Below are positions 50,695 to 52,178 of a stretch of 64,000 nucleotides of DNA, one piece after another. Within the stretch, counting starts at the first letter, position 1, and the number at the start of each line of letters is the position of its first letter. A model generated the notes under the pieces. The model was not told the DNA's origin. It saw only the letters and a list, made by a program, of their open reading frames with translations, and made no database searches. Both the position numbers and the translations under genes were made by a program. The stretch is taken from contig PQAO01000021.1 in assembly GCA_003104995.1 (NCBI GenBank), positions 1 through 64,000 on the forward strand. The letters are read 5' to 3'. This DNA is from Dehalococcoidia bacterium (GTDB lineage: Bacteria; Chloroflexota; Dehalococcoidia; Tepidiformales; Tepidiformaceae).

Positions 50695-50770
50695 CGTTCC
50701 CTAAAATGCGGCTTGTGGTCGCTCGGCGTAGTCGCGAATATGCCTCATGCGCCCCTGGAGCGGAGATCTG

Positions 50771-51037
50771 ATGACTATCGATCCAAGGCACACCCTGGAA
50801 AATGAGCACTGCCGAGAGTTGACGACGGCGGAGCGGGAGGTCGTCGTGCTTCTCACCGAGGGCCTGACCGTCGTCGAGGTGGCGTGCCGGCGCGTTGTGG
50901 AGGAATCGACCGTGCGGTCTCACATCAAGCATGTGCATCAGAAGCTGGGCACCCACCGGCTGGCCCAAATCGTCCGCTTCGGGTTCCGTCACCGCGAGTG
51001 CTGTCTGGGTGGGGAACGCCCCGGTTGGGAGTTCTAG
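50771..51037 (+). CDS. Standalone LuxR/NarL-type HTH protein
   Basis: ELTTAEREVVVLLTEGLTVVEVACRRVVEESTVRSHIKHVHQKLGTHRLAQIVRF is a LuxR-C HTH. No receiver domain. Confidence 0.8.
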   Translation: MTIDPRHTLENEHCRELTTAEREVVVLLTEGLTVVEVACRRVVEESTVRSHIKHVHQKLGTHRLAQIVRFGFRHRECCLGGERPGWEF

Positions 51038-51525
51038 CCCGCGCTATCGTGCTCCAGCGGACCCTCCAACAACTCCGCCACGTGACCCAGCAGCGGCAAG
51101 AGCACGTCCATCCCCTGCCCTGCCGCCTTCGGGCTCCCTGGCAGGTTCACGATCAGCGTCCGCCCACGCGTGACCGCCACGCCCCGGGTCAGCGCTGCAT
51201 AGGGCGTGTGCCTCAACCCGTTCTCGATGAGCGCAATCGGGATCCCGGGCACATCCCGCTCCGCGATGTCGCGGGTAGCCTCCGGTGTCTGGTCCCGCGG
51301 TGTCAGCCCTGTTCCTCCTGTGGTCAGGATGACGTCGCAAATCTCCGCGTCGGCCCAGACCCGCAGGTGCTCGGCGATGAGCGCCCGGTCGTCCGCGACG
51401 ATATCGTGGCGGACCACCTCGTGCCCGGCTTCGATCAGCATCCGCGCGATCGTTTGGCCCGAGACATCCTCCCGTTCGCCGGCCGCGCCCTTGTCCGATG
51501 CCGTGAGGATTGCGATTCGTGCCAT
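51034..51525 (-). CDS. MogA/MoaB-family molybdenum cofactor biosynthesis protein
   Basis: IAILTASDKGAAGEREDVSGQTIARML, VILTTGGTGLTPRDQTPEAT, LIVNLPGSPKAAGQGMDVLLPLL. Confidence 0.93.
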   Translation of the reverse strand: MARIAILTASDKGAAGEREDVSGQTIARMLIEAGHEVVRHDIVADDRALIAEHLRVWADAEICDVILTTGGTGLTPRDQTPEATRDIAERDVPGIPIALIENGLRHTPYAALTRGVAVTRGRTLIVNLPGSPKAAGQGMDVLLPLLGHVAELLEGPLEHDSAG

Positions 51526-51548
51526 GGGGGCGATCCTACCTCAGGTCG

Positions 51549-51573
51549 CCCCATTCCTCCCCACTGTTCCCCC
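51549..51573 (-). promoter_or_regulatory. Three 10-bp-phased (T/G)GGGG boxes facing mogA, MraZ-box-like
   Basis: Minus strand GGGGGaacagTGGGGaggaaTGGGG, exact 10-nt phase, just upstream of the mogA-like start. Confidence 0.45.
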
Positions 51574-51626
51574 GCAGCCCTCGTAAGGGCTTTCCCGGAC
51601 TCTCGATAACTTGTCAAGAAAAACCG

Positions 51627-51656
51627 TTGACACGCTCTCCACCCTGCCCATAGTAT
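51627..51656 (+). promoter_or_regulatory. Sigma70-type promoter for mraZ/dcw
   Basis: TTGACA (51627-51632), 18-nt spacer, TAGTAT (51651-51656). Confidence 0.8.
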
Positions 51657-51661
51657 GGCGC

Positions 51662-51690
51662 GTGGGGTGAAATGGGGTGAAATGGGGCAA
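51662..51690 (+). promoter_or_regulatory. MraZ-binding repeats (three TGGGG boxes, 10-bp phase)
   Basis: gTGGGGtgaaaTGGGGtgaaaTGGGGcaa immediately downstream of the -10 and upstream of mraZ. Matches the known pattern of TGGG direct repeats bound by MraZ. Confidence 0.8.
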
Positions 51691-51749
51691 GCGCCCTTGC
51701 TCTCCCAATTTCGGGGCCAGCCGGCCCACACCCCGGAAGGGTTCGGGGG

Positions 51750-52178
51750 ATGCGATTCGTAGGCACCTTCGATTACGTGCTCGACGACCGGAACCGGGTC
51801 CCAATCCCGCCGGTCTATCGTGGCGCGTTCGACGAAGGCGGCTATATCGCCACCGGCACCGAGCCCTGCCTGGTTCTCCACACCCTCGACTCGTTCGCCC
51901 GCGCGTCCGAGATCATCGAGGCCATCCCAGAAGAGACGAAGGAAGGCGAGGATGCCCGGCGCGACTTCTATGGCAAGGTCTGGCCCTTGCAGAAGGATGC
52001 CCAGGGCCGCGTCACCATCCGCGAGGACCTTGCGAAGTTCGCCGGGCTCACCAAGGACGTCAAAGTTGTTGGCGTCGGCCGGCGCATGGAGGTCTGGGAC
52101 AGCGCCACCTTCGACTCGCGTGAAGAGGCTCGCCAGGCCGCCCGAGTCACCGCAGTCCAGAGAGCTCAGGAGGGGTAA
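51750..52178 (+). CDS. mraZ: Transcriptional regulator MraZ
   Basis: MRFVGTFDYVLDDRNRVPIPPVYR and KDAQGRVTIREDLAKFAGLTKDVKVVGVGRRMEVWD. Heads the dcw cluster. Confidence 0.96.
   Translation: MRFVGTFDYVLDDRNRVPIPPVYRGAFDEGGYIATGTEPCLVLHTLDSFARASEIIEAIPEETKEGEDARRDFYGKVWPLQKDAQGRVTIREDLAKFAGLTKDVKVVGVGRRMEVWDSATFDSREEARQAARVTAVQRAQEG

Follow-up and report, generated by a model that had tools for sequence, protein, structure and literature searches.

A probable lineage-specific second MraZ operator on the divergent mogA promoter of a Dehalococcoidia bacterium

The window analysed here is a stretch of 64,000 nucleotides from the 3.24-Mb draft genome of a Dehalococcoidia bacterium (G000), whose closest relative among the genomes compared is its sister species G004. 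Within the window a mogA-like gene and mraZ, the first gene of the dcw cluster, are arranged divergently around a gap of 224 bp. The features of the locus are given below, with scores from two models of mraZ operators, R1 and a PWM.

50747-51037, + strand: LuxR-type frame, the convergent neighbour downstream of mogA
51034-51525, - strand: mogA-like gene for a MogA/MoaB-type molybdopterin adenylyltransferase (PF00994, E 1.5e-33; TIGR00177, over cut-off)
51533-51538, - strand: putative mogA -10 element TAGGAT, 7 nt before the ATG and abutting box 4, its TAnnnT kept in the family
51539-51543, - strand: mogA-side box 4, TGAGG (TGGGG in G004), from the sequence and an alignment with G004
51549-51573, - strand: mogA-side boxes 1-3, GGGGGaacagTGGGGaggaaTGGGG, predicted second MraZ operator (R1 11.6 bits; PWM 25.6)
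51627-51656, + strand: mraZ promoter, with TTGACA at 51627 and the -10 in CATAGT/TAGTAT (51651-51656), in the same layout as in relatives
51663-51687, + strand: mraZ operator, three TGGGG boxes in 10-bp phase, from the sequence
51750-52178, + strand: mraZ (protein P0001; PF02381, E 4.1e-16)

The mogA product matches the MogA and MoaB equivalog models below their cut-offs, and its predicted assignment is at the level of the PF00994/TIGR00177 family. Its ATG lies at 51525, a start codon position kept in relatives. The LuxR-type frame downstream is convergent, so only mogA would feel the array upstream of it. The MraZ of this genome matches solved MraZ structures and retains both DxxxR motifs, with R16, D83 and R87 invariant in an alignment of MraZ homologues. 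A cognate MraZ with its DNA-binding motifs is thus present in the same genome as the mogA-side array. The sole other PF02381-domain match in the genome is partial (27.8 bits) and falls in a 120-aa frame at G000:C24:22865-22987, which is perhaps an AbrB-like protein.

The first-pass annotation had placed three TGGGG boxes downstream of the mraZ promoter, at 51663, 51673 and 51683, and these coordinates are right. The + strand here reads TGGGGTGAAA TGGGGTGAAA TGGGG with all three boxes perfect, and a pattern search for exact TGGGN6TGGGN6TGGG returned this array as its single occurrence in the genome. The mraZ-side operator is near universal in the class, where 76 members have an array of at least 10/12 core matches.

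The same annotation had noted an opposite-strand array with the same 10-nt phase just upstream of the mogA start. This is also borne out, with GGGGG (51573-51569), TGGGG (51563-51559) and TGGGG (51553-51549) on the - strand separated by aacag and aggaa, and a fourth box, TGAGG (51543-51539), had been overlooked. The array is inverted relative to the mraZ operator and 89 bp away from it. The T is missing from box 1 and there is one mismatch in box 4, giving 11/12 core matches over three boxes and 14/16 over four. All of the 35 tabulated gaps of the family have a TAnnnT motif 6-9 nt ahead of the mogA start codon, and such a placement so near the start is the arrangement described for leaderless bacterial genes (PMC3160421). 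The mogA promoter would therefore appear to be leaderless. No -35 consensus was evident on reading the sequence at mogA, and the promoter listing had no promoter on the - strand. As box 4 abuts the conserved TAnnnT, here TAGGAT, the array overlays the predicted mogA promoter and covers it from the -10 upstream.

Could this array have arisen by chance, from a C-rich stretch in a GC-rich genome with G runs at a 10-bp spacing? C makes up 39% of the + strand in the mogA half, and one-mismatch arrays showed no enrichment across the genome, with 20 found against 30 for a reversed-pattern control. The simple pattern alone therefore proves little; by the same count, two overlapping one-mismatch arrays in one promoter are noteworthy. 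Models built from mraZ operators argue against chance. R1, a sequence-only covariance model from 46 mraZ operators outside the window's genus, had two hits at E<=10 across the genome, with 150 of several hundred first-look candidates scored: the mraZ operator at 11.9 bits and the mogA-side array at 11.6 bits. The latter has an E value of 2.3 per genome, equivalent to about 2e-4 for the 224-bp gap. A PWM made from the mraZ operators of other genera scored the mogA side at 25.6 bits, against a leave-one-out median of 26.4 for genuine operators, which is around the 45th percentile of the 76 mraZ-side arrays. Elsewhere, no unrelated site in the window scored above 10.8, and among the other one-mismatch arrays of the genome the highest score was 13.4. 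None of 60,000 composition-preserving shuffles attained the mogA-side score, and a purely compositional origin was dropped as the main explanation. Shuffling the 101-bp mogA half gave P=0.0015 (mononucleotide) and 0.003 (dinucleotide) for the 3-box score, and the 4-box score was attained in 0/10,000 and 0/4,000 shuffles.

The spacers point the same way. In mraZ operators the 6-nt spacers hold an independent signal, being purine- and A-rich, and the mogA-side GAACAG and GAGGAA fit this signal while GCGACC does not (joint P against the operator consensus 0.0009 for the first two and 0.004 for all three). The mraZ operator of G097 contains TGGGGAACAGTGGGG, and the mogA-side array of the window GGGGGAACAGTGGGG. 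Some relatives have similar R1 scores elsewhere, mostly within coding frames, so the score alone is no proof and it is the position that makes the mogA-side array unusual. A wider MraZ regulon drawn from these secondary matches in other genomes was dropped, as most overlap open frames. The shuffles, the two R1 sites and the fitting spacers together make chance unlikely, and predicted binding by MraZ the best explanation.

Of the 37 family members with mraZ, 36 have the divergent mogA-mraZ pair, as do 32 of the 59 other class members tested. Across these 68 gaps the mogA-side array is absent from 66 and is seen only in G000 and G004, with PWM scores of 25.6 and 17.0 and a next best of 11.4. The G004 array is weaker and falls under the R1 threshold; G003 and G005, of the same genus, are without it, and the contig of a further congener, G006, begins inside mogA. 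The array is therefore not conserved but lineage-specific. The earlier annotation had proposed this comparison and would have taken conserved mraZ-side boxes without conserved mogA-side boxes as evidence against a role for MraZ at mogA. The gaps come close to that pattern, and absence in nearly all relatives would also be expected of chance. However, the four boxes of G000 and G004 align in ungapped register, each species with its own imperfect boxes, and identity is 17/20 for box bases, 7/15 for spacers and 34/61 for the rest of the mogA half. The boxes differ from the spacers at P 0.02 and from the rest of the half at P 0.009 (Fisher), values that come from one species pair and few sites. 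In this one comparison the boxes are kept better than the spacers, as expected of a young operator under selection. Together with the motif quality and the spacer match, this box-biased conservation leads us to read the pattern as a recent gain and not an artefact.

We therefore favour reading the mogA-side array as a second MraZ operator, recently gained and inverted, which lies on the mogA promoter and most likely represses mogA. The full reading seems to us fairly probable. Its parts differ in strength: that MraZ binds the array is likely, whereas repression of mogA overall has only slightly the better of even chances. The earlier proposal that MraZ may control mogA is thus plausible, since an operator-like array in the score range of real operators lies on the mogA promoter, but the array is not a conserved part of the region. 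In the proposed mechanism, MraZ oligomers would dock on the four 10-bp-phased boxes, which span the mogA promoter from the -10 to about 35 bp upstream. Docking there should hinder RNA polymerase, making repression the default expectation, and mogA expression would come under the autoregulated signal that also governs dcw. The mogA-side boxes lie upstream of the mogA -10 and the mraZ-side boxes downstream of the mraZ -10, a difference we count against a fixed sign of regulation; with boxes upstream of a -10, MraZ might instead activate mogA, although this is not the default. Against the second operator as a whole we count the absence from 66 of 68 gaps, the weak G004 array and the imperfect boxes 1 and 4. 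We also know of no functional link between MogA and division, which counts against it as well.

The two operator-grade arrays within one 224-bp gap could also be read as a single device for mraZ. Here the mogA-side array would be an auxiliary operator, a MraZ ring binding both arrays in a short loop that strengthens autorepression, with mogA incidental. Extension of the operator does recur at mraZ, with + strand boxes upstream of the -35 in G008 and G012 and an extra GGG in 20 of 32 genomes. However, the array is set against the mogA -10 and not the mraZ promoter, and its geometry is seen in no other genome. The first-pass annotation had offered looping between the arrays as its second suggestion, and we obtained no positive evidence for it: 89 bp of DNA is stiff and short for a loop, and the distance between the arrays shifts by 1 bp in G004. 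We consider the auxiliary operator improbable and favour the annotation's first suggestion, MraZ control of mogA, over looping. In a related arrangement, a single MraZ assembly would span both inverted arrays and switch the two divergent promoters together; this also seems improbable, if anything slightly more so. If true, such bridging would tie the synthesis of molybdenum cofactor in this lineage to the programme of cell division.

The G tracts raise the question of whether a G-quadruplex, or another structural element unrelated to MraZ, forms on the mogA template region. G000 has three G4-5 tracts plus GAGG, and G004 has four tracts; for the mraZ promoter of S. aureus a G-quadruplex has been reported together with reporter data (PMC11796246). 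By inspection, the motif of four runs of at least 3 G with loops of 1-7 nt is present in G004, while G000 has three runs, its fourth tract being broken (TGAGG). A quadruplex would have no need of the exact 10-bp phase, the T before GGG or the purine-rich spacers, yet all of these match mraZ operators, and we regard this explanation as very unlikely. The site might belong to another regulator that recognises phased G boxes, as the M. gallisepticum HsdC site is a similar direct repeat with a 1-nt difference (PMC5282649), but a model made from mraZ operators ranks the mogA-side array next to the mraZ operator, and we give this almost no weight.

A second MraZ operator on mogA would have both parallels and departures among known systems. 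The dcw operators of E. coli, Burkholderia cenocepacia and Mollicutes are, like the mogA-side array, direct repeats with a 10-nt period and a GTG/TGGG core. Four repeats are described in B. cenocepacia (PMC7761207) and (AAAGTGKN3)3 in Mollicutes (PMC5282649); published operators comprise 3-4 repeats, and MraZ itself has been described as forming an octameric toroid (PMC7761207, PMC5282649). Unlike the dcw operators, the mogA-side array sits on a divergent gene, is inverted relative to mraZ, has its boxes upstream of the -10 and not at the transcription start, and is limited to two sister species. Conservation across relatives, typical of dcw operators, need not be expected of a secondary site. 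For a second target there is precedent in E. coli: MraZ binds at the promoter of mioC, a gene outside dcw, and its overexpression lowers mioC transcription about 12-fold (PMC4446571). E. coli mioC is unlinked to mraZ, whereas mogA here adjoins mraZ divergently and is a predicted MraZ target only.

To our knowledge, MraZ has few targets beyond the dcw cluster, and among open-licence papers we found none that treats mogA-mraZ, or MraZ in Chloroflexi. A second operator that scores well, is position-specific and lies on a metabolic gene would extend the MraZ regulon into Chloroflexota. It would also allow the gain of an operator at a divergent promoter to be followed in a small example, where near relatives without the site serve as natural controls.

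Several minor observations concern the mraZ side. The mraZ leader (51690-51749) is almost identical between G000 and G004, while the mogA half of the gap has strongly diverged. Among the mraZ promoters of the 37 family genomes, the extra GGG falls within the -35/-10 spacer, two helical turns (21 bp) upstream of the first mraZ box, and is a possible further MraZ box; the window's genus is without it (51627-51662 in the window). The added arrays of G008 (L035) and G012 (L056) are TGGG-type and lie upstream of or overlap the mraZ -35, suggesting repeated extension of operator arrays at this locus. The third mraZ box is often trailed about 7 nt later by CCCA, which creates an inverted repeat, for example GTGGGGAATCGCCCCAC in G018 and 51683-51707 in G000. 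Such a repeat may represent either a leader hairpin or a box in inverted orientation; folding gave three consensus G-C pairs, no covariation and a single-sequence z of -0.97, and we do not claim a hairpin that uses the third box. Finally, in G017:C375 (L031) a second MraZ-like match, weak and with a single stop, falls in the frame immediately upstream of mraZ; it may be a duplicate of mraZ that occupies the position of mogA.
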